Positions 24,653-46,543 of a DNA stretch of 64,000 bases are shown here, piece by piece. The first letter of the stretch is position 1; every line of letters begins with the position of its first letter. The position numbers and the translations under genes are program-made. Source of the DNA: Methanooceanicella nereidis (lineage in GTDB: Archaea > Halobacteriota > Methanocellia > Methanocellales > Methanocellaceae); assembly GCF_021023085.1 (NCBI RefSeq), contig NZ_PGCK01000003.1:62001-126000 (forward strand), in the 5' to 3' direction. The notes under the pieces are model-generated. The model worked only from the letters and a program-made list of their open reading frames with translations, was not told the origin of the DNA and searched no databases.

Positions 24653-25497
24653 GGAACATTCTCCCTTATGGTCCCGATGTCTTTGATCCTTTCAGGAACG
24701 CTGTATATCTGCATCCTCGGCGGCCTGGCAAAACAAATAAGCGTCATGTTCAGCTTCCTGGCAAGCTCTATGCCTGTGGTGAAAGGCGCTGTATTACTGA
24801 TAATGACGGGTATTCCTGCCCGGTAAGCCTTTGCCACCATCCCCGCCGGCATTCTGCCCGTACATACCATAAAGCATCCGGAAAGGTCCCGGCCATCAAG
24901 AAGGGCTTTACCGACTGCCTTATCAATAGTGTTATGTCTTCCCATGTCTTCCGCATAGGATATGAGGGAGCCCATTTTGTCGAAAATAATGGTGCAATGG
25001 GTACCTCCGGTCGTCTTCCATAACACCGCAAGATCGTTGATCAGCTCGATGGAATGAAATATCATATCCTTACTCAGGGATATGTCCGACTTTACCGGTC
25101 CTTCAAGACTCATCCATGAAGACCTTACTCCTACGCATCCGGAGCTTCTTATTTCCATCCACAGGCCTGGGTCGTCTTTATCGAATTCGGGTACTTTGAC
25201 AAAAATATCTGGCCAGTTTATCTCGACGCTTTCTATCCTGTCAATCGACCTGATCAGGCCTTCACATATCAGGTAGCCATACACGAATTCCTTAAGGTTT
25301 GACGGCGTAATGGTCAGGCTCGCGACCCGGGCACCGTTTAAAATGATATTAACGCTCTCCTCCACGCAGACTTCTACGTCGACTCTGGTTACGGCATCCC
25401 TGTCCACTCTTGTGACCGTATATGAATTAGTAAGATCTTTATTCTCATTTCCTCTTTCATGAATGCCGTTTATGCTACCATTTTCCATCAGACTCAT
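24649..25497 (-). CDS. fdhD: FdhD family sulfurtransferase for molybdopterin enzymes
   Basis: A 282-residue FdhD, which passes sulfur to the bis-MGD cofactor of formate dehydrogenase-type enzymes. Family motifs are GYLICEGLI, YAEDMGRHNTIDKAVGK and CTGRMPAGMVAKAYRAGIPV. The catalytic loop reads SSGCVGVRSS, so only the first of the two cysteines of the E. coli CxxC is present. It is coupled by a 4-base overlap to moeA. No formate dehydrogenase is seen, so the likely client is the nearby FwdB. Confidence 0.9.
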   Translation of the reverse strand: MSLMENGSINGIHERGNENKDLTNSYTVTRVDRDAVTRVDVEVCVEESVNIILNGARVASLTITPSNLKEFVYGYLICEGLIRSIDRIESVEINWPDIFVKVPEFDKDDPGLWMEIRSSGCVGVRSSWMSLEGPVKSDISLSKDMIFHSIELINDLAVLWKTTGGTHCTIIFDKMGSLISYAEDMGRHNTIDKAVGKALLDGRDLSGCFMVCTGRMPAGMVAKAYRAGIPVIISNTAPFTTGIELARKLNMTLICFARPPRMQIYSVPERIKDIGTIRENVP

Positions 25498-25707
25498 TCC
25501 TTCATACCCGTTTTCAATTTTAAAAACACATCCATACCGGACAATGTTGACGTGTGGCCGGTCAATTTATGTGAATTGTTTAGGATAAATCAGGGTTAAG
25601 ATTTACTAAATAGTTATCGGTTATGATTTCATTATATTAAATATGTAAACATATTCAATAACAATGTCCTTATGTTCATTTATATTTTTTAAAAATGATA
25701 ATTTTAG

Positions 25708-25890
25708 TCAAGGCCTGTCATATTCAATATCGAGGTCCATAGAGTCGATAGGATATGATCTGATAAACTCATGGACGGAAAAAAGATTCAATTTATAATC
25801 ATCGACTAACAGGCAATTTTCCGGTACTTCAAAAGAATGCTCATCGTTCAGATCATATTCAAAAACGAACTGTATTGAGCCGGAATCCAT
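25708..25890 (-). CDS. hypothetical acidic small protein (60 aa)
   Basis: A 60-residue acidic protein beginning MDSGSIQFVFEYDL and ending DIEYDRP, with no cysteine cluster or membrane segment except a single Cys. It starts 26 bases after the second fdhD gene on the same strand, so it is probably the last gene of fwdB-fwdD-fdhD2. The ribosome-binding site is weak (GGAAAAGAG). Real but unrecognised, or possibly spurious. Confidence 0.45.
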   Translation of the reverse strand: MDSGSIQFVFEYDLNDEHSFEVPENCLLVDDYKLNLFSVHEFIRSYPIDSMDLDIEYDRP

Positions 25891-25916
25891 ATTATCAACT
25901 CTTTTCCAGGGTTATT

Positions 25917-26726
25917 TTATTGCAGGTTATCAAAGCCGGTAAGGCCTTCATGCATTAATCGGGCGTATTTTTCCCTTTTATCCTCAAGACCGGTGATGCG
26001 CTCTTCGCCGCTATAGATGTCTATCTTCGGCATGAACGGGAAAGAAACAAGCGTCATAGAAAACTTACGGGCTAGCTCCACTGCCTTGCTTGAAGGGCTT
26101 GCCCAGGTAATGAACACCGGTATGTTCGCCCTGCGCGCTTTCCTGACCATCCCTGCCGATGCCCTTCCTGTACACATGAGGATAGAGCCATTCAGGTCAA
26201 CGCCATTTAAAACAGCCTTTCCGACAGCTTTATCGACGGCGCAGTGCCTGTCCTCGTCCTCTGCATAGGATATTATTCCTCCGTATGGGGTAAAGATCGC
26301 GGAACAGTGAGTGGCTCCTGTCATCCTTGCTATTTTAGCAAGCTCTTCCAGGCGCATTCGGCAATGGTATAATATTTTATGGTCGATCGATACTTCGATG
26401 AAGGGATCAAAAAAATCACATGAAGCCTGTCCAGCCTTATCCCCGCCGACGAGCACATCAATAGAGCTGTCATGCGGTTCAAAGCTTATGACGTCGCCGA
26501 TACTGCCTATGAACCCTTCGCAAAACAAATGTCCGTAGGCAAGGGCTTCGATATTATCGGGGGTCGCCATGAAGGATGCGACTCTTTTACCGTTAAGCAA
26601 TATCCTGAACTTTTTTTCCGGGCAGACTTCTATGTTCGACCATCGGGCAACATCACCACATATATCCAGCACTCTATATTTCGAGGTTGTCTTACTTCCA
26701 TATGGGTATGAGACTTCGGGATACAT
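25917..26726 (-). CDS. fdhD: second FdhD paralogue, linked to fwdBD
   Basis: A 269-residue FdhD-family protein diverged from the copy at 24649. It keeps AYGHLFCEGFIG, YAEDEDRHCAVDKAVGKA and CTGRASAGMVRKARRANIPV. In place of the catalytic CxxC loop is QASCDFFDPF, one cysteine in a changed setting. Only 24 bases separate it from fwdD upstream, so it is almost certainly cotranscribed with formylmethanofuran dehydrogenase subunits. The likely role is cofactor sulfuration or delivery specific to FwdB, which is inference. Confidence 0.85.
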   Translation of the reverse strand: MYPEVSYPYGSKTTSKYRVLDICGDVARWSNIEVCPEKKFRILLNGKRVASFMATPDNIEALAYGHLFCEGFIGSIGDVISFEPHDSSIDVLVGGDKAGQASCDFFDPFIEVSIDHKILYHCRMRLEELAKIARMTGATHCSAIFTPYGGIISYAEDEDRHCAVDKAVGKAVLNGVDLNGSILMCTGRASAGMVRKARRANIPVFITWASPSSKAVELARKFSMTLVSFPFMPKIDIYSGEERITGLEDKREKYARLMHEGLTGFDNLQ

Positions 26727-26750: not shown

Positions 26751-27176
26751 TTAGTCCTCAGCCTTTTCCTTCCAGATCTTGTGCATATTGCCGCCGAAGT
26801 ACTCCTGTCTCATCAGGGTGACAGGATCAAGGACGGGGCCGTTGCACTTTTCGATGTCGACCTTCAGGTTCTTGTAGGTCGGGCTTCCCGTACTTTCGGT
26901 GTATACCGTAACGACGATGTTGGCCCATACTCCTCGCGGGACGAAGACCTCTCCTCTCTGCTGCGTGTTGGTCTTTTTCGCCCTGAGGACGACGCTGTCT
27001 CCATACTCGTTGGTGATGCGTACGAACCATGGCCTTCCGAGGGCGTCAAAGTCCTCCGGGTTGATGTTGCAGTACGCGGCCTCGCGCATGTATCCTTCGG
27101 CATCTGCGAACGTCTTGCCGCCCTTGATTATGGCGCCCTGGTAGACTGTTGAACCGGTGTTAAGAGTTATCTCCAT
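26751..27176 (-). CDS. fwdD: formylmethanofuran dehydrogenase subunit D
   Basis: A 141-residue molybdopterin-dinucleotide-binding domain protein, the C-terminal-type MGD domain carried as a separate subunit in Fwd/Fmd. Motifs include ALGRPWFVRITNEYGDSVVL and VFVPRGVWANIVV. The complex reduces CO2 to formylmethanofuran, the first step of methanogenesis, or the reverse. The start is set at ATG 27176 because GAGGTG lies 6 bases upstream; the frame extends 11 codons into the fwdB 3' end. fwdB ends 10 bases upstream. Confidence 0.9.
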   Translation of the reverse strand: MEITLNTGSTVYQGAIIKGGKTFADAEGYMREAAYCNINPEDFDALGRPWFVRITNEYGDSVVLRAKKTNTQQRGEVFVPRGVWANIVVTVYTESTGSPTYKNLKVDIEKCNGPVLDPVTLMRQEYFGGNMHKIWKEKAED

Positions 27177-27186
27177 GTCATCCACC

Positions 27187-28557
27187 TCACTGCTTTGCCT
27201 CTCTGGCATCCTTCTCTGCTTTCTTCTTCTTTACGATCTCGAACAGCTGCTTCAGAGTGTGCTCGTTCGATTCGGTGAAGTCAAATGGCGGCTTTGTGAA
27301 GCTTCTCGCGTAGATGGGCACGTTGTCCATCCTGTAGAAAGTGCCTTCACATTCCATTCCGTCGAATACGCCCGGCAGAATGATGTCGCTCATGAAAGCG
27401 TTAGTTCCGGGGGAGGTCTCTATTGCTATCATCGGGATCTTGGCGAGCCTTTCGACAGCCTTCTTAGGAAGGTGCCCTCCAAGGTTTGCGCACATGACGA
27501 TCATCGCGTCAACTTCTCCACGGGACAGGGCATCCACACAGGAGTATTCTCCCGGCTGATACCTGGGGATACCTCTTGAGAAGTCCACTGCGAACGGGAA
27601 GCCGTGCGTCCAGGCTAACACCTGGTTGAAGCCTGCCACATTGCAGTGCCCTCTGTTAGCGTTGATCACGAACTTTGTGAACTTGTTGCATTCATGGGTG
27701 AATCTCATCGCTATCGCTGCGTTGTAGTGGTGGCCCCTGCTGCTCGCTATGCCCAGTCCGACCCATATTACTCCGAACTTGCATTCCTTTACCATCTCAG
27801 CCATCTTGTTGAGGGTCTCTCTTGACACTCCTGTGACCTCTTCCACGGTCGGGTGCGGCTCCTCGCCTCTCAGCATGGTCATAAGTGCATCGATGAGCTC
27901 ATGATCCTTTCCGGGCTTTAGCTGGACGTGAAGGTCAGCGGCCTCGCAGGTCGGGCTCCTTCTCGGGTCTACGACGATGACTTTCCTGCCTTTGAAGCCC
28001 TGCTCTGTCCAGAAGCCTCTGGCGAACTGGGAGTGGCGGCTCATGTGCCTCGGGTGCGAGTCTGCCGGGTTGCATCCCCAGTATATGTTCAGGTCTGCCC
28101 TGTTCTTGCATTCTCCGAGGGTGGAACCTACCTGCCCCGAAAGCTGCAATCCCATGATTGTGGGACCGTGGCAAATGGTAGCGTTACCATCTACTAAACC
28201 GCCGAGGTATTCAGCGATCTCGATACCTACTGCCATCGCCTCGTTAGACGTTTCGCTTCCCATGAAGAAGAAAGGCCTCTTTGCGTTGACCAGTATATCG
28301 GCGGTCTTTTCAAGCGCCTCGTCCCACGAAGCCTCTTCTCCGTGGACAAGCGGCTTTGTAAGCCTGTGGTGGCTGCGGAGCTCCTGGAACTTCGCATCTC
28401 CCATAAGGCAAGCGTTCTTGGTCAGTACCGCATCGTCCGTAAGCTCGATATAAATATCATCGCAGGACATTCCGCACACCGGGCAGGTCACATCTGTACA
28501 CGTGATCTTCTTCCCGTCTTTCTTTACAACATTTTCTTCGACTACCTCTGAGATCAA
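27187..28557 (-). CDS. fwdB: formylmethanofuran dehydrogenase subunit B (Mo/W catalytic subunit)
   Basis: A 456-residue bis-MGD oxidoreductase subunit. An N-terminal CPVCGMSCDD motif fits the [4Fe-4S] site. ATICHGPTIMGLQ holds the cysteine expected to ligate Mo or W, and NIYWGCNPADSHPRHMSRHS is the MGD-binding loop. It is a cysteine, not selenocysteine, form. TTG 28557 is the start: GAGGTG sits 6 bases upstream. Only subunits B and D are here; A, C, F and G must be elsewhere, so this may be a second isoenzyme. The divergent tfx suggests the molybdenum (fmd) form. Confidence 0.93.
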   Translation of the reverse strand: MISEVVEENVVKKDGKKITCTDVTCPVCGMSCDDIYIELTDDAVLTKNACLMGDAKFQELRSHHRLTKPLVHGEEASWDEALEKTADILVNAKRPFFFMGSETSNEAMAVGIEIAEYLGGLVDGNATICHGPTIMGLQLSGQVGSTLGECKNRADLNIYWGCNPADSHPRHMSRHSQFARGFWTEQGFKGRKVIVVDPRRSPTCEAADLHVQLKPGKDHELIDALMTMLRGEEPHPTVEEVTGVSRETLNKMAEMVKECKFGVIWVGLGIASSRGHHYNAAIAMRFTHECNKFTKFVINANRGHCNVAGFNQVLAWTHGFPFAVDFSRGIPRYQPGEYSCVDALSRGEVDAMIVMCANLGGHLPKKAVERLAKIPMIAIETSPGTNAFMSDIILPGVFDGMECEGTFYRMDNVPIYARSFTKPPFDFTESNEHTLKQLFEIVKKKKAEKDAREAKQ

Positions 28558-28735: not shown

Positions 28736-28979
28736 TAGTTATCCATATCGATTGACAATTTTTTGAAAATTAACTATAAGTGATATACTTTAAATTATTA
28801 AATATATATAAAAAAAGAAATAACATTACATAGAAGCCATTATTGAAATTATTATTTATATAATATTACAAATATATCAAATATTTCCTTGATATTCTGC
28901 AGAGACCGGATTAAACTGCTCTAGTCAAAAACTATATATCGAACGTTTTTACAAAACTATTAAACACTTGAGGAAGGCT

Positions 28980-29396
28980 ATGAGGGAACACGAAAAAGAT
29001 ATGCTTCTTACAGAAAAGCAGGTAGAGGTATTAAAATTAAAGAAAAAAGGACTATCCCAGGCGGACATCGCAAGGAAACTGAAGACGACCAGGGGTAATA
29101 TCTGTATCATTGAGAATACTGCTTTAAAGAACATTGAAAAGGCTAAAAACACCTTAAAGTTCTACAGGGCACTTGAAGCGCCGATATGGATCACTGTTCC
29201 GGCAGGCACGGACCTTTATAAGATACCTGAGATCATATTTACGGAAGCGGATAAAAAAAGGATAAAGATAGCCATAGATTCAGCCATGGTCATCGTGAAG
29301 CTCAAGACAGAGGTCCAGGATAAGATCCACGGAAGGCTGACTGTGGACGAGATAGAAATATCCGTGGACGAACACGGAAATATGTCTATATCCTGA
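28980..29396 (+). CDS. tfx: Tfx family DNA-binding protein
   Basis: A 138-residue protein. The N-terminal HTH (LTEKQVEVLKLKKKGLSQADIARKL in parts, residues about 8-33) is followed by a conserved archaeal C-terminal domain with APIWITVPAGTDLYKIPEIIF. In Methanothermobacter, Tfx binds downstream of the promoter of the molybdenum formylmethanofuran dehydrogenase operon fmdECB. Here it is divergent from fwdB, the same functional pairing. ATG 28980 is preferred to the TTG at 28968: GAGG at 28970-28973 overlaps that TTG and lies 6 bases before the ATG. A TATA element is at about 28931-28939. Confidence 0.92.
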   Translation: MREHEKDMLLTEKQVEVLKLKKKGLSQADIARKLKTTRGNICIIENTALKNIEKAKNTLKFYRALEAPIWITVPAGTDLYKIPEIIFTEADKKRIKIAIDSAMVIVKLKTEVQDKIHGRLTVDEIEISVDEHGNMSIS

Positions 29397-29445: not shown

Positions 29446-30078
29446 TTACGCGGTCTCTTTATCGTAGTAGGACAATGCTCCGCATCCGCGGCAAACTCCG
29501 TTCTCGATAGTGTTCTCCGGCACCATCTCTCCGCACCGGGGACAGGTTGTAGAGCTCCATTTCTGCTTGGGGGTGAACCGTACGTTAACGGGGTACCATG
29601 AAAGAATATCTTTTCCTGCCGTCAATATCTCGTCAAGAAGATCCGAGCCTGCTACGCCGCCCTTGAAAGCGGGATCGTTCCTGTACCACAGGTTCAGTGT
29701 CGGATATTTCTTTACTTTTTCAGCATCAATGTATACCCTGATTCCGGGTGCTGTCTTATCTTCGCTAAACCTGTTCACCGTGATGGCAAACCTTCCTGTA
29801 TCAATGACCCTCAGCCTGTGGTTGCCATATGTGCAGTGAATGATCACCTGTAACGCGTCAGGGGCGCATTTAGCCGTCTCTGATACGGCATATAGCCTTT
29901 CTCCAGGCACTGCGCCAAGTTTCTCAAGGGCAAGGTCGACCATGAATGTGCTGATGAGCAGGCCTGCCGCAGGGAATGTATGAAACTTTACGCATTCGCT
30001 GATGTATTCCTTGATCTTTTCGTCTACCTCTAGATTATCCATCTTAATCTTTAGATCTTTCAGGTCGTATTCTTCCAT
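29446..30078 (-). CDS. fmdE: FmdE-domain protein with C-terminal zinc ribbon
   Basis: A 210-residue protein of the FmdE family. The N-terminal domain has VKFHTFPAAGLLISTFMVDLAL in place of the more usual CxxHG-type motif, then SETAKCAPDALQV and TYGNHRLRV. The C-terminus is a zinc ribbon (CPRCGE...CRGCGA). FmdE copurified with Mo formylmethanofuran dehydrogenase, but its biochemical role is unclear. It stands between tfx and the molybdate transporter, so a molybdenum link is likely. Confidence 0.88.
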   Translation of the reverse strand: MEEYDLKDLKIKMDNLEVDEKIKEYISECVKFHTFPAAGLLISTFMVDLALEKLGAVPGERLYAVSETAKCAPDALQVIIHCTYGNHRLRVIDTGRFAITVNRFSEDKTAPGIRVYIDAEKVKKYPTLNLWYRNDPAFKGGVAGSDLLDEILTAGKDILSWYPVNVRFTPKQKWSSTTCPRCGEMVPENTIENGVCRGCGALSYYDKETA

Positions 30079-30180: not shown

Positions 30181-31305
30181 TTATATCTTTTCTTCTTCAT
30201 CAGTCTTACCGGCTTTTTTTGGTTTGAAGAATAAATAGTACAGGACGTAAGCCACTATTCCTGCCGCCAGGCCGGCCGTCGCGTCCACTATCATGACTAT
30301 CACGCCCATCATGACAGTGATTATCAATATATCGGTCTTCAATGCGTTCTTTAATAGCTCCGCGCCCGCAAAGAACAGCAGCGTGCCAAGTATTCCTATC
30401 GGTATGACCGCAAGCATTTCCGACGTCGATATGAATGACAGTAAAATAAATACTGTCCCTATCATTATATTGGCTCCTCCGGTCCTCGCTCCAAACTTAT
30501 AATGGGCGGCCATGCCCCCTGCGCCGTGGCACATAGGGAAACCGCCCATGAATGGCAAGGTGACGTTCACGACCCCTATGGACAAGGATAGTTTCTTATT
30601 AGATATCTTTTCTTTGAAAAGGTCTGATGCCAGCAGGCTTGTCGCCAGTACGGCATTGGTAAGGGTAAGCGGTATCTGGGGGATGCCCGCCTTATATGCC
30701 CCGCTGACGACCTCTCCGATCGTCGGGACATAGAGGTCCAGCGGTATGTTCAGGTTGACAGGCGGCTGGCCGTGGGCATATATCCCGTAAAGGATCCCTA
30801 ATATGAATATAATGAGCGCACCCGGGAAATTCAGGTCTTCTGTCCTGTCGTTAAAGTATTTCGAAGCCACGAATATCAGCACTGCAAGTATGCCTATCAG
30901 CATATCCTGGTAAATGTACTGGCCGCCTTTGAAAATGAGCACGAACGCAAGGCCAAGCTGCACGCCTCTGATAAGGCTCAGGGGGAATATCTTCTCAATA
31001 TAGTTTATGATCCCTGTTATGGCGATCAGGATAAAGAACAGCCCTACAAAAAGTCCTGCTCCGATTATCTCTCCCTGGGTGAGGCCCACTGAGATGATGA
31101 TCGCTCCTACTACCTTAAGAGGCTCTACGGCTACGGGCAGCTTGAAGATCACTCCGGTGAATATATAGAAAAGCCCGAACATCAATAGTATCGGCCCCAG
31201 CTTCATATCCGCGATGCTGACCGCTACAAGGACGAATGGTATAATTGTGCCAAGGTCTGCAAGAGACCCCGTGAACTCGGGCAGCGTGAACTTATGTTCC
31301 GGCAT
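30181..31305 (-). CDS. MOT1-type molybdate/sulfate transporter
   Basis: A 374-residue membrane protein with about ten hydrophobic segments of the SulP-related MOT1 family. Diagnostic motifs are SLADLGTIIPFVLV near the N-terminus, AVEPLKVVGA, and GGFPMCHGAGGMAAHYKFGARTGG (quoted in part) in the middle. Plant and bacterial MOT1 members import molybdate with high affinity. It is followed upstream on the same strand by mop, 54 bases away, so a Mo-uptake/storage operon is likely. It provides a second uptake route besides the ABC systems. Confidence 0.85.
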   Translation of the reverse strand: MPEHKFTLPEFTGSLADLGTIIPFVLVAVSIADMKLGPILLMFGLFYIFTGVIFKLPVAVEPLKVVGAIIISVGLTQGEIIGAGLFVGLFFILIAITGIINYIEKIFPLSLIRGVQLGLAFVLIFKGGQYIYQDMLIGILAVLIFVASKYFNDRTEDLNFPGALIIFILGILYGIYAHGQPPVNLNIPLDLYVPTIGEVVSGAYKAGIPQIPLTLTNAVLATSLLASDLFKEKISNKKLSLSIGVVNVTLPFMGGFPMCHGAGGMAAHYKFGARTGGANIMIGTVFILLSFISTSEMLAVIPIGILGTLLFFAGAELLKNALKTDILIITVMMGVIVMIVDATAGLAAGIVAYVLYYLFFKPKKAGKTDEEEKI

Positions 31306-31933: not shown

Positions 31934-32563
31934 ATGAATAGATACGATAAGAAAAAGTCCAAAGAATTTGACATGATCGCTAAGACTGCGTTTGCCCCTA
32001 TATATCCGGTGATAGCGCAGCAGATCGTGGATAGGTGCGGCGTGCGTACCGGCATTTGCATAGATGCAGGCAGCGGACCTGCTCTGCTGGCTATCGCACT
32101 GACAAAAATGACCGCCCTGAAAACCTATTCCATGGACTCCTCCGAAGATATGCGCGAGATAGCAGCGGAAAACATAGGCGCCGAAGGGCTATCTGACAGG
32201 ATCGTCACCATTAGGGGTGACGTACAGGATATGCCCTTTGAGGATGGCTTCGCGAACCTTGTTGTAAGCAGGGGCTCATTTTTCTTCTGGGATGACCTTG
32301 TAGCTGCCTTTAAAGAGATATATCGCGTCCTGAGTCTCGGCGGCAGGGCATATATCGGCGGAGGCTTCGGTAACGCAGAACTGAGGGCAAGGGCAGCTGA
32401 AGAAATGAGAAAAGTGGATGAGAAATGGGAAGACGGCGTGAAGAAACGATTTGAAATGTGCAACGCCGGGCGCTTCCATGGCATCATGAGAGACGCATAT
32501 ATACCCGATTACGAGATCATCGACGACGAAACAGGATTCTGGATATTGTTCAAAAAAGCATAA
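31934..32563 (+). CDS. class I SAM-dependent methyltransferase
   Basis: A 209-residue Rossmann-fold methyltransferase. Motif I is CIDAGSGPALLAIAL near residue 37, motif II/III around YSMDSSEDM and RGDVQDMPFEDG, then VVSRGSFFFWDDLVAAFKEIYRVLSLGG. The substrate is unknown. It starts after GGAGAAAA and is followed after 15 bases by a TrmO-family gene, so the two are probably cotranscribed; the pairing hints at a shared modification pathway. Confidence 0.88.
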   Translation: MNRYDKKKSKEFDMIAKTAFAPIYPVIAQQIVDRCGVRTGICIDAGSGPALLAIALTKMTALKTYSMDSSEDMREIAAENIGAEGLSDRIVTIRGDVQDMPFEDGFANLVVSRGSFFFWDDLVAAFKEIYRVLSLGGRAYIGGGFGNAELRARAAEEMRKVDEKWEDGVKKRFEMCNAGRFHGIMRDAYIPDYEIIDDETGFWILFKKA

Positions 32564-32578: not shown

Positions 32579-33070
32579 ATGGAAATCAAGTATAAGGTAA
32601 TAGGCATAGTACACTCGGAGTTCAAGGATAAAAAAAGTACACCTATACAGAGCATATTTAGCGAATCAAAGGGCACTGTTGAGGTATTCCCTGAATATGC
32701 GGAAGGTCTGAAGGACATTGATGGTTTTTCGCATCTCTATCTTATCTATCATTTTAATCAGGCTGAGGGCTGTATGCTGGTGCAAAAGCCTTTTGTGGAC
32801 GGCTCTAAGGAGAGGGGTATATTCTCGATAAGGCATTTTAACAGGCCGAACCCGATAGGCATATCTCTCGTAGAATTAAAGGGGGTAAAGGGCAACATAC
32901 TCGAGATAGACGGTGTGGATATACTGGATGGCACACCTCTTCTCGATATCAAGCCATATGTCAGGCAGTTCGACCACAGGGACGATGTCCGTTGCGGATG
33001 GGTGGATCAGAAGAACATGGAAGATCATAAAGGAAAGAAATTCACCCCTGAAGGGCTGGAAGAAAAATAG
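32579..33070 (+). CDS. TrmO/TsaA (UPF0066) family protein, copy 2
   Basis: A 163-residue TrmO-family protein with IGIVHSEF, ERGIFSIRHFNRPNPIGISL and DGTPLLDIKPYVR. In E. coli, TrmO methylates N6 of t6A37 in tRNA-Thr. Archaeal members often sit in molybdenum gene neighbourhoods, and the substrate of this copy is not established. The start is ATG 32579, 8 bases after GAGGA, rather than ATG 32573, 3 bases after it. It shares most motifs with the copy at 34194. Confidence 0.88.
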   Translation: MEIKYKVIGIVHSEFKDKKSTPIQSIFSESKGTVEVFPEYAEGLKDIDGFSHLYLIYHFNQAEGCMLVQKPFVDGSKERGIFSIRHFNRPNPIGISLVELKGVKGNILEIDGVDILDGTPLLDIKPYVRQFDHRDDVRCGWVDQKNMEDHKGKKFTPEGLEEK

Positions 33071-33097
33071 GTTCAGTTATCCTTAAAATGGTGATGG

Positions 33098-33129
33098 CAG
33101 GGATCATCAGGAAAAATAGCTCCTCCCTG
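33098..33129 (+). terminator. possible terminator after trmO copy 2
   Basis: CAGGG / CCCTG outer stem with an inner AGGA / TCCT stem and a bulge, followed by T-rich DNA (ATATTTTATTATTC...). It lies about 30 bases after the gene. Confidence 0.4.
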
Positions 33130-33319
33130 ACATATTTTATTATTCTTTAATTCTTTTTCCTTTTATGTCCATGATAAATGGTCACGCTGTCGGATCACTG
33201 TTTTCCGATAGCGATATCCGAATGCTTTTCTCAATGTTATTTATCTATTCCTTCTATGATCAAAAATGAAATACCTTGACCTGGATTCCTTTTTATTGTG
33301 TTAATCTATTTTATTAAAC

Positions 33320-33353
33320 AAAATATCAATGTTTAACATAATAGTAAAATATA
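33320..33353 (+). promoter_or_regulatory. promoter of the right-reading mod operon
   Basis: TAGTAAAATATA (33342-33353) is a TATA element about 25 bases before ATG 33375, which predicts a leaderless transcript. TCAATGTTTA (33326-33335) just upstream is identical (reverse complement) to 39032-39041 upstream of the second modA, where TAGTAAAATATA also recurs. Confidence 0.5.
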
Positions 33354-33374
33354 TGTATGGTCATTGAGTATTTT

Positions 33375-34178
33375 ATGACCATGAATTATCGTGGTCAGAA
33401 TATAACCAAAATCTCGATCCTTGTTATAGTAGTGATTCTGGTATCCATATGCGGATGCACGACCGTAAACAGCGGCGATGGACCTTCACTCCTTGTATAT
33501 TGCGGGGCGGGGCTGAACGAGCCGATGGATGAGATCGCTACAGCTTTCGAACAGGAGCACGGCGTGAAAATAGAGTTCAACTATGGCGGTTCAGGGGCGC
33601 TGTTAAGCCAGATGGAACTAACAAAAAAAGGCGATGTGTACATGCCAGGCTCGACCGATGATTTCAACATGGCGAAAAACAAAAGCTTCATAGATGGCGA
33701 CGGGAAGCTCGTGTTCTATCATACGCCAATAATAGCCGTACGAAAGGGCAACCCCGAAAACATCGCCTGCCTGAATGACCTCACCAGGCCCGGATTAAAG
33801 ATAGCGCTGGGCGATAACCAGTCCAATGCCATAGGAAAGCTTTGCGATAAGATGCTGGCAAAGAACGGGATAAAGGCAGGTGTGGAGAGTAATTTGGTGA
33901 CGCGTGCTGCCACAGTGAACGAGCTCGTCACATATGTGACCACTGGCCAGGTAGACGCCGTAATAATCTGGGAAGACCTTTACGACCCTGAAAATATGGA
34001 GAAGGTAACTATTCCTAAGCAGCAAAACATCATTAAGGTCATTCCGATCGGCGTGCTATCTTTCTCCGAAAATAAGGTCACCGCCGGTGATTTCATAGAT
34101 TTTGTAGCGTCAGATGAAGGAAAGGCCATATTTAAAAAATACGGGTTCGTAGCATACCCTGATCCTGAATATAGTTAA
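33375..34178 (+). CDS. modA: molybdate/tungstate ABC transporter substrate-binding lipoprotein
   Basis: A 267-residue ModA/WtpA-type protein. The N-terminal hydrophobic segment ends in a lipobox (SICGC), so the mature protein is anchored by a lipidated cysteine outside the membrane. LLVYCGAGLNEPMDEIATAF and NYGGSGALLSQMELTKKGDV (in part) are typical of the family's anion-binding lobes. ATG 33375 (or 33381) is chosen from the TATA position rather than the frame's ATG at 33357. It is followed by a trmO gene, modB and modC. Confidence 0.88.
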   Translation: MTMNYRGQNITKISILVIVVILVSICGCTTVNSGDGPSLLVYCGAGLNEPMDEIATAFEQEHGVKIEFNYGGSGALLSQMELTKKGDVYMPGSTDDFNMAKNKSFIDGDGKLVFYHTPIIAVRKGNPENIACLNDLTRPGLKIALGDNQSNAIGKLCDKMLAKNGIKAGVESNLVTRAATVNELVTYVTTGQVDAVIIWEDLYDPENMEKVTIPKQQNIIKVIPIGVLSFSENKVTAGDFIDFVASDEGKAIFKKYGFVAYPDPEYS

Positions 34179-34193
34179 ACGGAGGAATATTTC

Positions 34194-34670
34194 ATGTCCC
34201 ATATGTATGATGAGATAGGCGTCATCCACTCTGAATTCAAAGAAAAGGAAAAGACCCCTGTACAGAGCGCTTTCAGTAAAGCGTGGGGAACTGTCGAAGT
34301 ATTCCCCGGGTATGCGGACGGGCTTAAGGATATTGAGGGTTTCTCTCATATCTTTTTATTATATCATTTTGACAGGGCTGACGGGAGCGCGATCTCTGAA
34401 AAGCCTATAGTCGACGCAAAAGGGGAACATGGTGTTTTTGCCATGAGGCATTTTAACCGCCCCAATCCCATAGGGCTCTCGATAGTCGAACTAAAAGGTG
34501 TCAGGGGAAATATCCTCGATGTATGCGGGCTGGACATACTGGACGGCACGCCGCTTCTCGACATTAAGCCATATATCAGGCATTTTGATGTCATGGAAGG
34601 CATCAGGAACGGATGGGTTGACGAACAGCACATGGGCGCCATCAGGGACAAAAGCGTAAAGCCCGCTTAG
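34194..34670 (+). CDS. TrmO/TsaA (UPF0066) family protein inside the mod operon, copy 3
   Basis: A 158-residue protein with IGVIHSEF, EHGVFAMRHFNRPNPIGLSI and DGTPLLDIKPYIRHFD. GGAGG lies 8 bases before the ATG at 34194, only 15 bases after modA and 15 before modB, so it is embedded in the molybdate ABC operon. It is closely similar to the copy at 32579. It is a putative SAM-dependent methyltransferase by family. Its placement suggests a molybdenum-related role or Mo-dependent expression. Confidence 0.88.
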   Translation: MSHMYDEIGVIHSEFKEKEKTPVQSAFSKAWGTVEVFPGYADGLKDIEGFSHIFLLYHFDRADGSAISEKPIVDAKGEHGVFAMRHFNRPNPIGLSIVELKGVRGNILDVCGLDILDGTPLLDIKPYIRHFDVMEGIRNGWVDEQHMGAIRDKSVKPA

Positions 34671-34685: not shown

Positions 34686-35486
34686 ATGGTATCATCACGT
34701 GGAAGCCTGGCGCTGAAAGTACTGACAACTTCCTCGGGATTCGCACTGACACTGTTCATATTTTTGGTAATATCGAGCATACTGGCGTTCCCGTCGACGG
34801 ATGAACATGTCTCGGCCATATTATCCGATGAGATCTCTTTTGCTGTCCGGCTTAGTATCGAGACGTCGGTCATATCCACGCTGCTGTGCATCATAATGGC
34901 CATACCTGCCGCATACGCTCTTGCCAGGTACGACTTCCATGGCAAGGCTGCCGTGAACGCTGTCATGAACGTCCCGCTGGCGCTGCCTCCTCTTGTGGCG
35001 GGCGTAGGGCTTCTGATATTCTTTGGCATGACGCCTTTCGGAAAACTACTTTCCGGCGCCGGTATGGAGTTCGTTTTCACTCCCGCAGGCATCATAGTGG
35101 CACAGTTCTTTATGAATGCCCCTTTCATGGTCAGGATAATGAGGTCGACCATAGAAAGCATAAACCCCCGATATGAGCACGTGGCAAAGACGCTTGGATG
35201 TGATGATCTTCAGGCGTTCTGGCGGGTCACGATGCCGATGTCGAGGAACGGGCTGCTCGCGGGCGCTGTCATAACCTGGTCAAAAGGGATAGGCGAGTTC
35301 GGAGCTGCGCTGATACTGGCCGGTGCCACCCGCATGAAGACCGAAATACTGCCTGTATCCGTATTCCTTAACATGTCATGCGGGAACCTTGACCTGGCAA
35401 TATCCGCCGCTTCCATCATGATAGTGATATCACTTATCTCGCTTCTCATATTCGAAAAGTACGGCAGGGCCGGCAGCGTATACTGA
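34686..35486 (+). CDS. modB: molybdate ABC transporter permease
   Basis: A 266-residue permease with about six membrane segments and the cytoplasmic coupling (EAA) loop AKTLGCDDLQAFWRVTMPMSRNG (in part) that contacts the ATPase. PLALPPLVAGVGLLIFFG is a conserved ModB segment. It lies between trmO copy 3 and modC in the same operon. Confidence 0.92.
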   Translation: MVSSRGSLALKVLTTSSGFALTLFIFLVISSILAFPSTDEHVSAILSDEISFAVRLSIETSVISTLLCIIMAIPAAYALARYDFHGKAAVNAVMNVPLALPPLVAGVGLLIFFGMTPFGKLLSGAGMEFVFTPAGIIVAQFFMNAPFMVRIMRSTIESINPRYEHVAKTLGCDDLQAFWRVTMPMSRNGLLAGAVITWSKGIGEFGAALILAGATRMKTEILPVSVFLNMSCGNLDLAISAASIMIVISLISLLIFEKYGRAGSVY

Positions 35487-35500: not shown

Positions 35501-36541
35501 ATCTTAAGATTGATAGGCGTCTCAAAGAAACTTGGCGAGTTCTCATTGAAGGACATCCGGCTTGAAATAGGCGAGAACGAGTACTTTATGATACTTGGCC
35601 CGTCAGGGACCGGCAAGACCATCCTCCTGGAGACCATTGCCGGCATATACCAGCCGGACAGCGGGAATATTATGATGAATGGCATCGACATCACCCGATC
35701 GCCCCCCAGGGACCGGAGGATTGGCATGGTCTATCAGGACTTCATGCTGTTCCCACATCTTTCGGTTCTTGATAACATCGCATTCGGGCTCAGGTCATAC
35801 AGGGCATCGCCGGATGAGACGAGGAAAAGGGTCGAAGAGTGCGCTGAACTGCTGAACATTTCCGGTCTCCTTCACAGGTATCCTGCAACTCTTAGCGGGG
35901 GAGAACGCCAGAGGACCGCTATCGCGCGTGCACTGGTCATCAGGCCCGGCGTACTTCTGCTGGACGAGCCGCTAAGCGCGCTTGACGTTAAGACTCGATA
36001 CATGCTTCAAGAAGAGCTAAAAAAGATACATAAGGTGACAGGGACCACGATCGTCCATATTACTCATAATTTCGAGGAAGTGTTCTCTCTTGCGGACCGT
36101 ATTGCAGTCATGGACAACGGGGCCATAGTGCAGGTCGGAAAGCCCGACGAGATCTTCAGGAGGCCGGGATGCGCATTTACTGCAGGTTTCGTTGGCATGG
36201 ATAACGTCGTCCCGGGCGAAAGCCGTATAGAGAACGATATGTCTATTATTAGATCGAACGGGATGACGATAGTATCAACGGTACAAATGAACGGTACTGT
36301 GAACGCTTGTATTCGCCCTGAGGACATCTTAATATCAAAGACTTTGTCTTACGGCCACGAGAACGTTTTGGCCGGTAAAGTGGAACGGGTCATTAATAAC
36401 GGCCCGTATTACCGTGTCATTGTGCACGCCGGCGTACAGTTGACCGCGATATTGACCAGGCGGGAAGTAGTGATGTCGGAGATCAAAGAAGGCGCGACAG
36501 TATACCTATCATTCAGTGCATCCGACGTACATGTTTTTTAA
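35501..36541 (+). CDS. modC: molybdate ABC transporter ATP-binding protein with TOBE domain
   Basis: An ABC ATPase of about 346 residues: Walker A GPSGTGKT, Q-loop VYQDFMLFPH, signature LSGGERQRTAIARAL, Walker B VLLLDEPLSALD, H-loop HITHNF, and a C-terminal TOBE domain (about 265-346) that senses oxyanion. The first canonical start is TTG 35510, 15 bases after the AGGAGGG at 35488-35494. ATC 35501 is 6 bases after it and gives exactly the N-terminal length usual for ModC (six residues before VSKK). I therefore favour ATC, with moderate doubt. Confidence 0.85.
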   Translation: MLRLIGVSKKLGEFSLKDIRLEIGENEYFMILGPSGTGKTILLETIAGIYQPDSGNIMMNGIDITRSPPRDRRIGMVYQDFMLFPHLSVLDNIAFGLRSYRASPDETRKRVEECAELLNISGLLHRYPATLSGGERQRTAIARALVIRPGVLLLDEPLSALDVKTRYMLQEELKKIHKVTGTTIVHITHNFEEVFSLADRIAVMDNGAIVQVGKPDEIFRRPGCAFTAGFVGMDNVVPGESRIENDMSIIRSNGMTIVSTVQMNGTVNACIRPEDILISKTLSYGHENVLAGKVERVINNGPYYRVIVHAGVQLTAILTRREVVMSEIKEGATVYLSFSASDVHVF

Positions 36542-36597: not shown

Positions 36598-37308
36598 TCA
36601 GCTGTAAAAATTATCGATAAAATCGTTATGGCCTTTTCGCAAGACTTCGGACGGCTCGCCTGAAGCGGCCACTCTGCCCTGGTCCATGATATATACCATC
36701 TCCCCAAGCTCTACCGCGTCCTTAATATTGTGGGTGACGATGATACATGGCAGCCCTGTCTCTTTTAAAGACGACCTTAGCTCCGCCCTCATCGATACCT
36801 GCGTCTTTACGTCAAGCGCGCTTAGCGGCTCATCGAGAAGCAGTATGTCAGGCTTGATGACCAGGGCCCTTGCCAGAGCCACTCTCTGTTTTTGCCCTCC
36901 GGAGAGCTTTATCGCTTTTTCATTCCTTAACTCCCACAGTCCCACAGAATCCAGCTGGGCTTTTACCCTGTTCTTTATGTCATCTGCTGTCATCTTTTTC
37001 ATCCTGAGCCCAAAAGCCACGTTATCCATGACAGTCATATGCGGGAACAGCGCGTAGTTCTGGAAGACATATCCGATGTTCCTCTTATTGAGGGGCACGT
37101 CTATGTTAGAACCCGAGTCGAAGAATTTCCTGCCGGACACCTCTATGGTGCCCGAGTCCGGCGACAGTATGCCCGAGACCATGTTTAGCACAGTGGTCTT
37201 TCCGGATCCGTTATTGCCCATGAGCACGAGCGTCCTGTGGCCATTAAGGCCGATGTCCACGTTGAGCTCGTAATCCCTGAGCATCTTTACTGTCTTAATC
37301 TTTAGCAA
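36598..37308 (-). CDS. modC: second molybdate-type ABC ATP-binding protein, no TOBE domain
   Basis: A 236-residue ABC ATPase: Walker A GNNGSGKTT, Q-loop VFQNYALFPHM, signature LSGGQKQRVALARAL, Walker B ILLLDEPLSALD, H-loop IVTHNI. It ends after the nucleotide-binding domain, so it lacks the regulatory TOBE domain of the other ModC. It overlaps modB2 by 14 bases in a left-reading modABC operon that is convergent with the first. Confidence 0.9.
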   Translation of the reverse strand: MLKIKTVKMLRDYELNVDIGLNGHRTLVLMGNNGSGKTTVLNMVSGILSPDSGTIEVSGRKFFDSGSNIDVPLNKRNIGYVFQNYALFPHMTVMDNVAFGLRMKKMTADDIKNRVKAQLDSVGLWELRNEKAIKLSGGQKQRVALARALVIKPDILLLDEPLSALDVKTQVSMRAELRSSLKETGLPCIIVTHNIKDAVELGEMVYIMDQGRVAASGEPSEVLRKGHNDFIDNFYS

Positions 37309-38116
37309 CTATCATTCGCCTCCTTGTAAGGATCTTTACAATGGCAATGACTGTAAACGACGTGATGACAAGTACTATGGATAAAAATAATGAAGCGTCT
37401 ATATCACCCTGCATGGCCGTGTATATGGCGAGAGGCATCGTCTGTGTCCTTCCCTGAAAGTTGCCGGCGAACATTATCGTCGCTCCGAACTCCCCGAGAG
37501 CGCGGGCCCATGTCATTATCGCGCCGGATATCAGCCCGTTCATGGCTATAGGCACGGTGATATAGAAGAACGTATACACTCTCGATGCTCCCAGGCTCCT
37601 TGCAGCGTTCTCGAAGGACCTGTCGACGTCCTCAAAACTGGTCCTCGCCTGCCTGATAAAGAATGGCGAGGCTACGAACACCTGTGCCATGACCACGGCT
37701 ATTGTGGTGAAAGCCAGCGTGACACCAAATAAGTTCAGGTATTCTCCAAGGACACCTTTTCTGCCGAACGCCATCAGAAGCGCTATGCCGGCCACTGCCG
37801 GCGGCATCACGACGGGCAGGTCCAGCAAAGTATCCACAAGTTCTTTCCCCGGGTATCTATAGCGTGCATTGATGAACGCGACCGGCGTCCCGATTATTAT
37901 CACAATAATAGTGGTCGCTATGGTGGTCAAGAAGCTAAGTTTTAAGGCTTCAATGACAACGGGCTCGTTCAAGGAACTAATGAACGACTCCGGCGACGTT
38001 TTGATAAATAGCGATACCACCGGCAGGGATATGTAAATAATGATGATGGCGAATATCAAAGATACGATGAGAGAGGCCGGAGTTATCCGGATCCTCCTCA
38101 TCAGGCCGGCCGCCAT
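37295..38116 (-). CDS. modB: second molybdate-type ABC permease
   Basis: A permease of about 273 residues with six hydrophobic segments, the PVVMPPAVAGIALLMAFG segment and the EAA loop AARSLGASRVYTFFYITVPIAMNG (in part). The frame opens at 38152 inside modA2, but AAAGGGG at 38128-38134 sits about 11 bases before ATG 38116, so the later start is preferred. It overlaps modC2 by 14 bases. Confidence 0.88.
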   Translation of the reverse strand: MAAGLMRRIRITPASLIVSLIFAIIIIYISLPVVSLFIKTSPESFISSLNEPVVIEALKLSFLTTIATTIIVIIIGTPVAFINARYRYPGKELVDTLLDLPVVMPPAVAGIALLMAFGRKGVLGEYLNLFGVTLAFTTIAVVMAQVFVASPFFIRQARTSFEDVDRSFENAARSLGASRVYTFFYITVPIAMNGLISGAIMTWARALGEFGATIMFAGNFQGRTQTMPLAIYTAMQGDIDASLFLSIVLVITSFTVIAIVKILTRRRMIVAKD

Positions 38117-38132
38117 GTTTTTACGGTCCCCT

Positions 38133-38975
38133 TTATACTCCTGTGAAGCCATATTTTTCCAGTATAGCCTTACCTTCAGACGATTTCACAAAGTCCACAA
38201 ACTTCTTCGCCGAGTCCTGGCGGCCGGATTCATCGAGCACACCTATGGGATATACGGCTATGACGTTAAGGTTGTCCGGTATGGATATGATGTTCACTTT
38301 TTCCTTGTATTCCTGCGGTACGTCAGACACGTACACGAAACCTGCGTCCGCCTCTCCGAGCGCTACCTTGGATACTACCATCGTAACGGTCGTCTCTTTG
38401 GATACAACGTTGTCAAGCACTTTTTGCTTATACTCCGGTCCATATGCCGAGTCGTTGCCCATCTTGTCGATGATCTGCACCGCATATGCGCCTACGGGGC
38501 ATTCCGGTGTACCTATGACTATCTTCACTCCCGGGTTAGCCAGATCAGAAAGCGTGTTGACATTGGCCGGGTTGTCTTTCGGGGTTATGACGCAGAGCTT
38601 GTTGTTCGCGAAGTTGACAACGGTATCATTTACCATGTATCCCGCGTCCTTGACCGCGTTCATGTGCTTCGTGGACGCTGATGCAAATACGTCGGCGTAT
38701 GCGCCCTGTTCTATCTGGGTCCTTAATGCCTGGCTCCCGTCAAAATTGGTCACGACATCAATGTTCTCGTTGCTTGCCATGAAAGCGTTCTTCATTTCAG
38801 TAAAGCAGTCGGTCAATGATGCTGCCGCGAACACTGTCAGTTCTATCTTTTCAGTCGGCGTCTCTGTTGCCCCCGGTGTGGCCGTAGGGCCTGTACCGGT
38901 CGTGCATCCAGACACGATAATGGTGATGGCCAGCGCGATGATCGCAAGACCTATCATTGATCTCTTTTTGTTCAT
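38133..38975 (-). CDS. modA: second molybdate ABC transporter substrate-binding lipoprotein
   Basis: A 280-residue ModA. A signal segment ends in the lipobox IVSGC, then a Thr/Pro linker (TGPTATPGATETPTE). The binding domain opens with ELTVFAAASLTDCFTEM, the classic ModA start, and contains QGAYADVFASAS. It is distinct from the first modA, which lacks AAASL, so the two systems may differ in oxyanion preference (molybdate versus tungstate). GGGAGG precedes the ATG. Confidence 0.92.
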   Translation of the reverse strand: MNKKRSMIGLAIIALAITIIVSGCTTGTGPTATPGATETPTEKIELTVFAAASLTDCFTEMKNAFMASNENIDVVTNFDGSQALRTQIEQGAYADVFASASTKHMNAVKDAGYMVNDTVVNFANNKLCVITPKDNPANVNTLSDLANPGVKIVIGTPECPVGAYAVQIIDKMGNDSAYGPEYKQKVLDNVVSKETTVTMVVSKVALGEADAGFVYVSDVPQEYKEKVNIISIPDNLNVIAVYPIGVLDESGRQDSAKKFVDFVKSSEGKAILEKYGFTGV

Positions 38976-39152: not shown

Positions 39153-39338
39153 TCATCGGCTCTCATATAATATTTCTATACGGGCATGACATACACATGC
39201 CACACATATTATTATTCCAGGTGCGCTATTGACATTTCCTTTGCACCGCACATGTCGTTGGTATCCTGATGGTCGACAGGCTCGAATACACTCTCCCGCA
39301 TATTTTAAGCACATTGAGCAGTGAAGATAATGTGTCAT
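39153..39338 (-). CDS. doubtful cysteine-rich small frame after the AnfO-like gene
   Basis: A 61-codon frame whose ATG overlaps the AnfO-like stop (ATGA). It has seven cysteines (HCSMC, ECIRAC, RCKG, ICVACVC). The codon choice (several CGA, CAA) is unlike the neighbours, and a GGCATG/CATGCC hairpin (39183-39201) lies inside it, so it may be untranslated 3' sequence of the nif operon. Confidence 0.2.
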   Translation of the reverse strand: MTHYLHCSMCLKYAGECIRACRPSGYQRHVRCKGNVNSAPGIIICVACVCHARIEILYESR

Positions 39339-39961
39339 CCATTGGCAGCCATTTTCACTATCCTTACCCTGAACTCGTTCTTACCTGACTGGCCGGTCTC
39401 GAAGACGAGTCCACTGCTTACCGCTTCCACTTCTATCCATGGAGGGACGTGGCTGCAGATGATCACAAGGGAGCGGAAACCGCCTTTTCGGATAAACTTC
39501 TGGAGAACCTGCTTGCTGGTGACATCCGCGTTCCCCTGTATCCCCTTGATAGAAATATAGAAGTTGCCGGGGGTTATTTCCTCGGGAGCAGGTAAGCATG
39601 GCGCAGCCTGGTCTTTTTCCATGGCCCGTTCCTTTTCTTCCTGCTGCCATACATGTTCCAGAAACTCCGAAGGCTTCCCGTCAAATTCCCACACGCTGCA
39701 CCCCGCCTTTTCCAGTTCAAAGAACGGGACGCCTGCGGCTGACTTTGCGACGAATATCCTGCACCCGTCAAGGAATTGCAGCATTTCACCCATATTCAGG
39801 CGAAGTTCTCGTATCCCCTTTACCCGGCCCATAGAAAATCCCTTTTCCCGGTCAATTTCCCATGAACCCTGTGCACGGCGAAAAACGACTATGTTCCCCG
39901 GCTCGTCCAGCAAAGTGCTCGAGCCGTCGTCTCCCAGAAATACAGCTATCTCCTTTGCCAT
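39335..39961 (-). CDS. AnfO-like nitrogenase accessory protein
   Basis: A 208-residue protein matching the AnfO family in its ends. The N-terminus is KEIAVFLGDDGSSTLLDEPG, and the C-terminal region has TSKQVLQKFIRKGGFRSL then IICSHVPPWIE. The acidic, Pro-rich middle is variable. AnfO was described with iron-only nitrogenase; here it ends a molybdenum nif operon, 25 bases after the ferredoxin gene. Its biochemical role is unknown. Confidence 0.7.
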   Translation of the reverse strand: MAKEIAVFLGDDGSSTLLDEPGNIVVFRRAQGSWEIDREKGFSMGRVKGIRELRLNMGEMLQFLDGCRIFVAKSAAGVPFFELEKAGCSVWEFDGKPSEFLEHVWQQEEKERAMEKDQAAPCLPAPEEITPGNFYISIKGIQGNADVTSKQVLQKFIRKGGFRSLVIICSHVPPWIEVEAVSSGLVFETGQSGKNEFRVRIVKMAANG

Positions 39962-39986
39962 CTTACACTCCCGATCGCAACGATCC

Positions 39987-40304
39987 TCATAATACCAGGC
40001 GTTCTACGACTTTACCGCCTTCGATGTGTTCGTCCATGATCTCGGTAACATCGTCTGCCGTTACAGACTTATACCAGATATTGTCGGGATATATCACGAC
40101 TATCGGCCCCTTTTCACATATCCCGAAGCAGCCGGTGTTAGTAAGGAAAACTTCGCCTCCGAGCTCGCGCTCTTCTATCTCTTCCGTGAACCTCATCATG
40201 ACGTCGACGCCTTCCTTAGTATGGCAAAAGCCTTTTTGCTGGCCGGTGGGGCGGGAGCTTGTACAAATAAATATATGTTTTGAGGGTTTCTGCATATCAT
40301 TCAT
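39987..40304 (-). CDS. thioredoxin-like [2Fe-2S] ferredoxin
   Basis: A 105-residue ferredoxin of the thioredoxin-fold type (Clostridium pasteurianum 2Fe-2S / NuoE-like). The N-terminal strand is HIFICTSSRPTGQQKGFC, and the second cysteine pair is in TNTGCFGICEKGPIV. It overlaps nifN by 8 bases, so it is part of the nif operon. It is a likely electron donor or structural partner of the nitrogenase system. Confidence 0.88.
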   Translation of the reverse strand: MNDMQKPSKHIFICTSSRPTGQQKGFCHTKEGVDVMMRFTEEIEERELGGEVFLTNTGCFGICEKGPIVVIYPDNIWYKSVTADDVTEIMDEHIEGGKVVERLVL

Positions 40305-41694
40305 CTCCTTCTATCGCTGCCTCTTGCATTCTCGATCCTTTAGTCAGTTCATCCTTCTTCTTCTGCCGATACGACGCATACTTTCTTTCCAGCAGCGTGT
40401 TTGTGAAACGGTCCAGGAAAGCAAGGGTGCCGGCATATCCTGCCGAGAGTATCCTCTGCCCGCCCATCCTGTCATGTATGGGGAACCCGACACGCACGAC
40501 AGGGATGCAAAGATGTTCTGTCAGGAATTTACCGCCTGAGTGTCCTATGGCCACGTTTGCCCCTGTACTAACTGCAGCTTCATATATTGCCGTAAAATCC
40601 GCATCTTCGAGGAATATGGGCTGCTCCTCTGCTTCGGCAAGCAGCATTTTTACCCGCGCCATAAGCCGGCCGTTCCTGGTCCCGGTGGCGATGACCGCAG
40701 GCATGGCGCCATTTTCCGCACATAACGCAGCGAACGCATAGACCAGCTCGGGCTCTCCATATATGACCGGATGGCCTTCTGCGTTATATTTGTGGGAATC
40801 TGCCATCGCGTCGAGAAGCCATCCTCTTTCCAGGGCCAGATAGTCGGGCATCAGACGCCCGCTGATCCTCGACAGGGCCTCTATGAAACGATCCGTGTTC
40901 TCAAGGCCGAAGGGCAGCGGAAGGTCTATCAGCGGCACGCCGTATTCCTGCTGCAGGTACAGCCCCGGCGACAGGTCATCAGGGCATGTCAGGCCGAACT
41001 GTATCGTGGCCCGGGCTCCTGCCATGCGGGAAATATCCCGGGTCCGGGTACCGCCGAGAGGTATCTTAAGGTATTCGCCGCCGAACGGCCTGTCCAGTGT
41101 CATGGAATAGTCCGGTATAAGCGTATACTCCAGCCCGGTCATGTCCAGGATGCGTTTTATTTCCCGGATGTCGGCAGGGCTTATGTGCGGAATTATCACG
41201 TTGATGCCCGAATGCTTTGCTACAGGCCTTGCATAATGCCTGATGATCTCCTTTGTGGCCGCCCAGAATCCTTCCGTATGGCTCCCGCTGTAACTGGGGG
41301 TTGCCACCGGGATGATATCCACGCCCCTGATGTCATGATCCTTGATGTACGACTGGATCATCCGCTCCATGTCCTCGCCGATGGTCTCCGCAAGACAGGT
41401 CGTAACCACCCCCAGGACTTTAGGCTGATAAACCCTGAGAACGTTGTCCAGCGCTTTCCGCAGGTTTGCTTCGCCGCCGTAGATGGTCTGTTTCTCGTTC
41501 AGGGCGGAAGACGCGATGTCTATCGGCTCGTTATAGTGCTCGACGTTCGACAGGCGAATGTACGTGCTGCAGCCCTGCGATCCATGTACCAGCACCATGG
41601 CCTCCTCTATTCCTTTGAATGCGACCACACCGCCAAGCGGCATACATGTCTGGCACTGGTTCTCGCTGACCATCTTCGCTCGCATATCGCTCAT
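40297..41694 (-). CDS. nifN: nitrogenase cofactor scaffold protein NifN
   Basis: A 465-residue NifN, partner of NifE in the scaffold where the NifB-derived cluster matures to FeMo cofactor. Conserved features are QCQTCMPLGG, LVHGSQGCSTYIRL and TTCLAETIGEDM near the N-terminal third. ATG 41694 overlaps the nifE stop (ATGA), a coupled start; the frame could extend 37 codons into nifE. The [2Fe-2S] ferredoxin gene overlaps its 3' end. Confidence 0.92.
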   Translation of the reverse strand: MSDMRAKMVSENQCQTCMPLGGVVAFKGIEEAMVLVHGSQGCSTYIRLSNVEHYNEPIDIASSALNEKQTIYGGEANLRKALDNVLRVYQPKVLGVVTTCLAETIGEDMERMIQSYIKDHDIRGVDIIPVATPSYSGSHTEGFWAATKEIIRHYARPVAKHSGINVIIPHISPADIREIKRILDMTGLEYTLIPDYSMTLDRPFGGEYLKIPLGGTRTRDISRMAGARATIQFGLTCPDDLSPGLYLQQEYGVPLIDLPLPFGLENTDRFIEALSRISGRLMPDYLALERGWLLDAMADSHKYNAEGHPVIYGEPELVYAFAALCAENGAMPAVIATGTRNGRLMARVKMLLAEAEEQPIFLEDADFTAIYEAAVSTGANVAIGHSGGKFLTEHLCIPVVRVGFPIHDRMGGQRILSAGYAGTLAFLDRFTNTLLERKYASYRQKKKDELTKGSRMQEAAIEGDE

Positions 41695-43082: not shown

Positions 43083-43112
43083 TTTTTCATCTCCCTCATC
43101 GTTAAGGACCGA

Positions 43113-44480: not shown

Positions 44481-44485
44481 TTTTA

Positions 44486-46530: not shown

Positions 46531-46543
46531 CATAACACTCCTT

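Follow-up and report, generated by a model that had tools for sequence, protein, structure and literature searches.

Described relatives of the TrmO-domain proteins

The best-studied relatives of the archaeal TrmO-domain proteins are tRNA enzymes, represented by Escherichia coli TrmO (also known as TsaA or YaeB), the tRNA m6t6A37 methyltransferase, whose TrmO_N beta-barrel binds AdoMet via residues that have been tested by mutation (Q25, R92, D125 and K136) and whose C-terminal domain, which carries the DPRxxY motif, is also required, with Asp194 and Arg196 both being needed (PMC4132733). The same study reported that archaeal homologues are devoid of this C-terminal domain, that m6t6A was undetected in archaeal tRNA, and that seven TrmO paralogues occur in a single methanogen (PMC4132733). 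Since the solution of E. coli TrmO in 2014, when its archaeal homologues were set aside as probably different, the archaeal proteins have remained without a known function, and automatic annotation still names all of them tRNA methyltransferases. The closest fold and solved relative of the proteins described here is AF0241 of Archaeoglobus (PDB 2nv4, UPF0066), which was crystallised with AdoMet and is itself without a known function.

A second described system is that of the UPF0066-FmdE (i.e., TrmO-FmdE) fusion proteins, which were listed already in 2010 in a paper according to which most FmdE genes are located near metal transporters (PMC2954224). The third is represented by the molybdate and tungstate importers of the ModABC/WtpABC type and by the MOT1 transporters, and the operon analyzed in the current study is of this type while additionally carrying TrmO genes. 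A TrmO-like gene in the interval from modA to modB is not known from textbook mod operons. Furthermore, no paper on a linkage of TrmO, TsaA or UPF0066 genes to mod or moaE was found in the open-access literature. What is new in the association reported below is the functional link of a known family, while neither the fold nor the system as such is new.

TrmO-domain genes of the window and the genome

The analyzed window is a 64,000-nucleotide stretch (contig NZ_PGCK01000003.1, positions 62,001 to 126,000) of the Methanooceanicella nereidis genome, which comprises 3.19 Mb in 41 contigs. A sequence-only reading of this window had noted three TrmO/TsaA-domain genes within 12 kb, and this was confirmed, coordinates included, as all three exceed the curated cut-offs: the copies starting at 22566, 32579 and 34194 scored 100, 134 and 127.3 bits, respectively, against PF01980 (cut-off 26.8) and 117, 136 and 134.6 bits against TIGR00104, the NCBIfam TrmO equivalog model (cut-off 93.25). 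The third copy (34194 to 34670, plus strand) encodes a TrmO_N-only protein of 158 aa and is flanked by modA and modB; the 15-base gaps reported on both of its sides are exact, since modA ends at 34178 and modB starts at 34686. The second copy (32579 to 33070, plus strand), the upstream neighbour of the same modA, also encodes a TrmO_N-only protein and shares 60% identity with the third. Its best start is the ATG at 32579, eight bases after a GAGG motif, while the mechanical open reading frame runs from 32573.

The first copy (22566 to 23396, plus strand) combines TrmO_N with a C-terminal FmdE domain that is genuine but partial, as it matches PF02663 with 34.2 bits (cut-off 22.9) across 61 of the 133 model positions. 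It thus has the same architecture as the known UPF0066-FmdE fusions, from which the locus differs in that the FmdE part is incomplete and the mod-linked copies are unfused. Because no ATG, GTG or TTG codon precedes the conserved N-terminus of this fused protein with its first strand (22566 to 22640), position 22566 falls on an ATT codon, which agrees with the length of homologues and appears to be either a rare ATT start or else a sequence error.

The count of three stands for the window and not for the genome, which contains five PF01980 genes, the fourth and fifth being located on other contigs. Each of these off-window copies has lost one AdoMet residue (Q to R in one, R92 to C in the other). 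The presence of multiple copies is not unusual as such, given the seven paralogues already reported in one methanogen. One off-window copy adjoins a putative dCTP deaminase gene, the identity of which was judged from sequence, while the fifth copy, i.e., that with the R92 to C change, is the last gene of a nickel/oligopeptide-type ABC operon (L007 5561-10867, contig 8 of genome G000) that also includes a class I methyltransferase gene.

Fold, AdoMet site and the missing C-terminal domain

The 34194 protein was modelled with AlphaFold2 on an alignment of 36 sequences, with a resulting pLDDT of 87. A fold search with this model returned AF0241 in complex with AdoMet (2nv4) as the best PDB match (E 5e-14, TM 0.92 by target), followed by TrmO of Pseudomonas aeruginosa, a YaeB-like protein of R. 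palustris and YaeB of Haemophilus influenzae. The mod-linked proteins share with E. coli TrmO the TrmO_N beta-barrel and its AdoMet site: all four residues are present in the three window copies, in 73-74 of the 74 mod-linked rows and in all 20 moaE-linked rows of the alignment. Unlike the E. coli enzyme, they possess neither the DPRxxY motif, found in 0 of 74 mod-linked open reading frames, nor an LGGN-type motif ahead of GVFATR. The corresponding domain TrmO_C (PF18389) was found in 0 of 100 Halobacteriota genomes, with the E. coli control being positive. The mod-linked genes differ from their E. coli counterpart also in their placement in Mo operons and in occurring as several copies per genome.

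The molybdenum locus

The region between 22 and 39 kb of the window represents a dense Mo locus. Downstream of the TrmO-FmdE gene, the minus strand encodes MoeA, which inserts Mo into molybdopterin (23423 to 24652; PF03453, PF00994), two FdhD-family maturation proteins for Mo enzymes (24649 to 26726; PF02634, 227 and 161 bits), and the FmdD and FmdB proteins of formylmethanofuran dehydrogenase, a molybdopterin enzyme (26751 to 28557; PF01568, PF00384). These are followed by a Tfx-type regulator gene on the plus strand (28968 to 29396; PF14601, 91 bits) and, on the minus strand, by genes for a stand-alone FmdE with a Cys-rich C-terminal part (29446 to 30078; PF02663, 96.7 bits) and for a MOT1-type molybdate transporter (30181 to 31305; PF16983, 165 bits). 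The neighbourhood of the fused copy, i.e., the presence of MoeA, FdhD and FmdB genes beside it, is kept in the same-family genome G001 and partly in G006.

A plus-strand gene group then begins with a class I AdoMet methyltransferase gene (31934 to 32563; PF08241, 63 bits), which is apparently co-transcribed with the 32579 copy. This methyltransferase, which the sequence-only reading had mentioned as the preceding gene, is not a conserved neighbour, as weak relatives of 31-33% identity lie within a few genes of TrmO in only two of the approximately 160 loci annotated with that query; the two genes were therefore rejected as a two-gene unit. The 32579 copy is followed by a ModA-type substrate-binding lipoprotein gene (33357 to 34178; TIGR01256, 95.2 bits versus a cut-off of 62.5), whose product has molybdate-binding proteins as its nearest solved structures, by the 34194 copy, by a ModB-type permease gene (34686 to 35486; TIGR01581, 238.5 versus 210.3, and TIGR02141, 181.6 and thus just below its cut-off of 182.6) and by a gene for a ModC/WtpC-type ATPase with a TOBE domain (35510 to 36541; PF00005, PF08402), all on the plus strand. 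The top model for this ATPase is that of tungstate WtpC (424.6 versus a cut-off of 440), while ModC scored 202 versus 285. The importer encoded between 33357 and 36541 is consequently predicted to carry molybdate or tungstate, with MOT1 and the Mo-gene neighbours indirectly backing molybdate.

A second modABC operon occupies the opposite strand from 36598 to 38975 (modC 36598-37308, modB 37295-38152 and modA 38133-38975), its modA scoring 156 bits against TIGR01256 and its modB 220 bits against TIGR02141 (cut-off 182.6). This operon, the MOT1-type transporter and the stand-alone fmdE gene were all absent from the sequence-only reading. In the window, no tRNA genes were found and no Rfam match to an RNA switch was obtained at the gathering threshold. 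The second mod operon is followed by a nif-type cluster (39335-47719, minus strand), the terminal gene of which encodes AnfO (PF09582), a family that takes its name from Fe-only nitrogenase, and adjoins a gene for a small 2Fe-2S protein.

Conservation of the modA-trmO-modB order

Searches of 296 Halobacteriota genomes, performed with the mod-linked TrmO and, separately, with the neighbouring ModA as queries, showed that 49 of the 70 close modA homologues are immediately followed by a TrmO gene on the same strand, at a distance of at most 400 bp; this corresponds to 45 of 59 genomes, while about 0.02 such cases would be expected by chance. Annotated loci with precisely the order modA-trmO-modB numbered 49 and came from eight families and no fewer than 22 genera, and this order extends to modA-trmO-modB-modC in conserved loci; the arrangement is therefore widespread and not unique to this strain. 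The junctions, as measured on uncorrected open reading frames, are mostly -4 to +50 bp or overlapping, and many relatives also carry a MOT1 gene divergently upstream of modA-trmO-modB-modC. An adjacent TrmO gene is missing from 21 of the 70 close modA homologues, which indicates that TrmO is dispensable for that importer. The largest group among these belongs to the family coded f3, whose sampled genomes with a close modA all lack the neighbouring TrmO gene, while the remainder is spread across several other lineages.

Links to molybdenum genes in other lineages

Members of the Methanobacteriota were found to possess one close TrmO homologue each, which adjoins a conserved open reading frame of approximately 145 aa that was identified by Pfam, in two examples, as encoding the large molybdopterin synthase subunit MoaE. 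When MoaE was used as query, 20 of 30 sampled TrmO loci in this phylum had moaE within two genes. In Methanofastidiosum loci, TrmO is followed by MOT1 with ModABC nearby, and one of these loci additionally has MoeA and MoaA in the vicinity. A small bacterial sample, consisting of plasmid records only, contributed two proteobacterial cases, namely a Comamonas plasmid with the order tsaA-modA-modB-ABC ATPase and an Indioceanicola plasmid with the order modA-tsaA-ABC transporter-TOBE. On the other hand, 97 of the 204 rows of the archaeal TrmO set were without a Mo neighbour by the queries used, and other members of the fold may thus perform other tasks. A wider partnership of TrmO with ABC transporters was also considered and is unsupported outside the mod clade, where an ABC ATPase was near in 9 of 70 cases, i.e., at background level.

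Phylogeny

The tree of these 204 rows was built fast and contains many weak branches, for which reason it was used for clustering only. The mod-transport label changes 16 times on this tree compared to about 60 times in shuffles, and one supported set of 70 rows comprises 61 mod-linked copies and nine unlinked ones, some of the latter being seen with a flank of only 1.5 kb. Both the 32579 and 34194 copies fall in a four-row set with the single copies of two same-family genomes (support 96), and the pair consequently looks like a local duplication. In the tandem TrmO-ModA-TrmO operons of family f4, the upstream copies group together and apart from the inner copies, and the tandem layout therefore has more than one origin.

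Proposed function and alternative explanations

The analysis demonstrated the fold, the AdoMet site, the loss of the tRNA domain, the conserved location of a TrmO gene between modA and modB, and an independent link to moaE in another phylum. On this basis the 34194 and 32579 genes probably encode AdoMet-dependent beta-barrel methyltransferases (class VIII) that consist of TrmO_N only and form a subfamily dedicated to Mo/W and distinct from the m6t6A enzymes, the best reading being that this subfamily is mis-annotated as a tRNA enzyme. The FmdE fusion and the MoeA, FdhD and FmdB neighbours of the 22566 gene point to the same role. That the function of the mod-linked proteins is tied to Mo/W appears very likely, and that they are true methyltransferases rather than passive AdoMet binders is likely. 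As for the putative substrate, a Mo/W-cofactor molecule or protein is slightly favoured over RNA, while a pterin or cofactor small molecule specifically is a rather doubtful candidate. The suggestion of a different or Mo-linked function made from the window sequence is thus upheld for the Mo linkage, which is seen both in the wide occurrence of modA-trmO-modB and in a second phylum, and a function unlike that of E. coli TrmO is probable, the tRNA-binding C-terminal domain being missing.

It may tentatively be proposed that the mod- and moaE-linked proteins catalyse an unrecognised AdoMet-dependent step in the supply of the Mo/W cofactor, e.g., one in which a pterin, a dithiolene intermediate or a Mo-handling protein is methylated. 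The TrmO_N enzyme would be produced together with the molybdate importer or MoaE and, in the cytoplasm, would use AdoMet to methylate a target needed upon the arrival of Mo; this target would most likely be an intermediate of the Mo/W cofactor route or a handling protein, and least likely RNA. The placement in Mo operons and beside moaE provides the first concrete and testable assignment for the archaeal homologues, namely to Mo/W metabolism. If it is correct, the Mo/W supply of methanogens, on which formylmethanofuran dehydrogenase, formate dehydrogenase and nitrogenase depend, involves a methylation that features in no current pathway; if the step is indeed one of cofactor supply, the enzyme would fill a gap in archaeal Mo/W metabolism and be the first methyltransferase of class VIII to act on a substrate other than RNA.

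The alternative that survives best, although unlikely, is that of a regulatory AdoMet-binding module, which would sense AdoMet, or methylate a regulator or RNA, and thereby set the expression or activity of the Mo importer, with no metabolite being made. The position of the gene within a transporter operon would suit such a module, as would the zinc-finger-like domain present on some FmdE fusions and the regulatory or metal-sensing roles proposed for FmdE (PMC2954224). However, the mod-linked proteins are without a DNA-binding domain and retain the AdoMet site in its entirety, also those residues without which the E. coli enzyme is inactive.

It is more improbable still that the genes encode true t6A methyltransferases of archaeal tRNA, with those in Mo operons tuning the translation of ANN/threonine codons upon Mo import, as in the 'Mo-sensing tRNA switch' that had been suggested for this locus. 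Passage of the equivalog cut-off by all copies, an AdoMet site identical to that of E. coli TrmO and the tRNA activity of the best-studied relatives are all in keeping with this explanation, while the absence throughout of the C-terminal domain that the E. coli enzyme needs, the lack of detected m6t6A in archaeal tRNA and the multiple divergent copies in each genome argue against it.

A third explanation, in which the enzyme takes part in making or modifying a small metal ligand that serves the uptake of metals in general, Mo being one of them, has a very low probability. It would accommodate the fifth copy in its nickel/oligopeptide-type operon with a class I methyltransferase gene, the roseobacter plasmid tsaA genes that lead ABC operons, and a plasmid on which a TrmO-lyase domain fusion is part of a biosynthesis-like cluster; against it stand the background frequency of ABC ATPases near TrmO outside the mod clade and the absence of a conserved biosynthetic partner from the mod operons. 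Mere co-location, in which the gene hitch-hikes in the operon and has no Mo-related function, is the least credible of all. In its favour, the f3 genomes show that the operon may lose the gene; against it, the order is kept across eight families, moaE provides a second and independent Mo partner, bacterial examples exist, and tandem TrmO-ModA-TrmO arrangements occur at least twice separately.

Further fusions and plasmid-borne genes

Besides the Mo/W-dedicated methyltransferases proposed above, a number of other TrmO_N genes were encountered. Fusions of TrmO_N to a DJ-1/PfpI domain (L043 7049-8086 and L135 3512-4549), which come from two genomes of family f9, lie beside two MoeA genes and an ABC transporter, while TrmO-FmdE fusions at L145 4069-5169 and in L147 adjoin genes for a siderophore/B12-type ABC transporter and a ParA-like ATPase. 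On a plasmid of Salmonella serovar India (NZ_CP022016.1; L169 379-6700), a gene joining TrmO_N to an adenylosuccinate-lyase-like domain belongs to a cluster that also comprises genes for a MoeB/ThiF protein, a MoaD/ThiS protein, a dehydrogenase and an ABC transporter, and that looks like a small-molecule pathway. Finally, an archaeal-type second tsaA gene adjoins the quinolone-resistance gene qnrA6 on the IncC-type plasmid NZ_CP086440.1 (L164 6986-7465), one of a class of clinical plasmids, and is probably a passenger from the chromosome of the qnrA donor.
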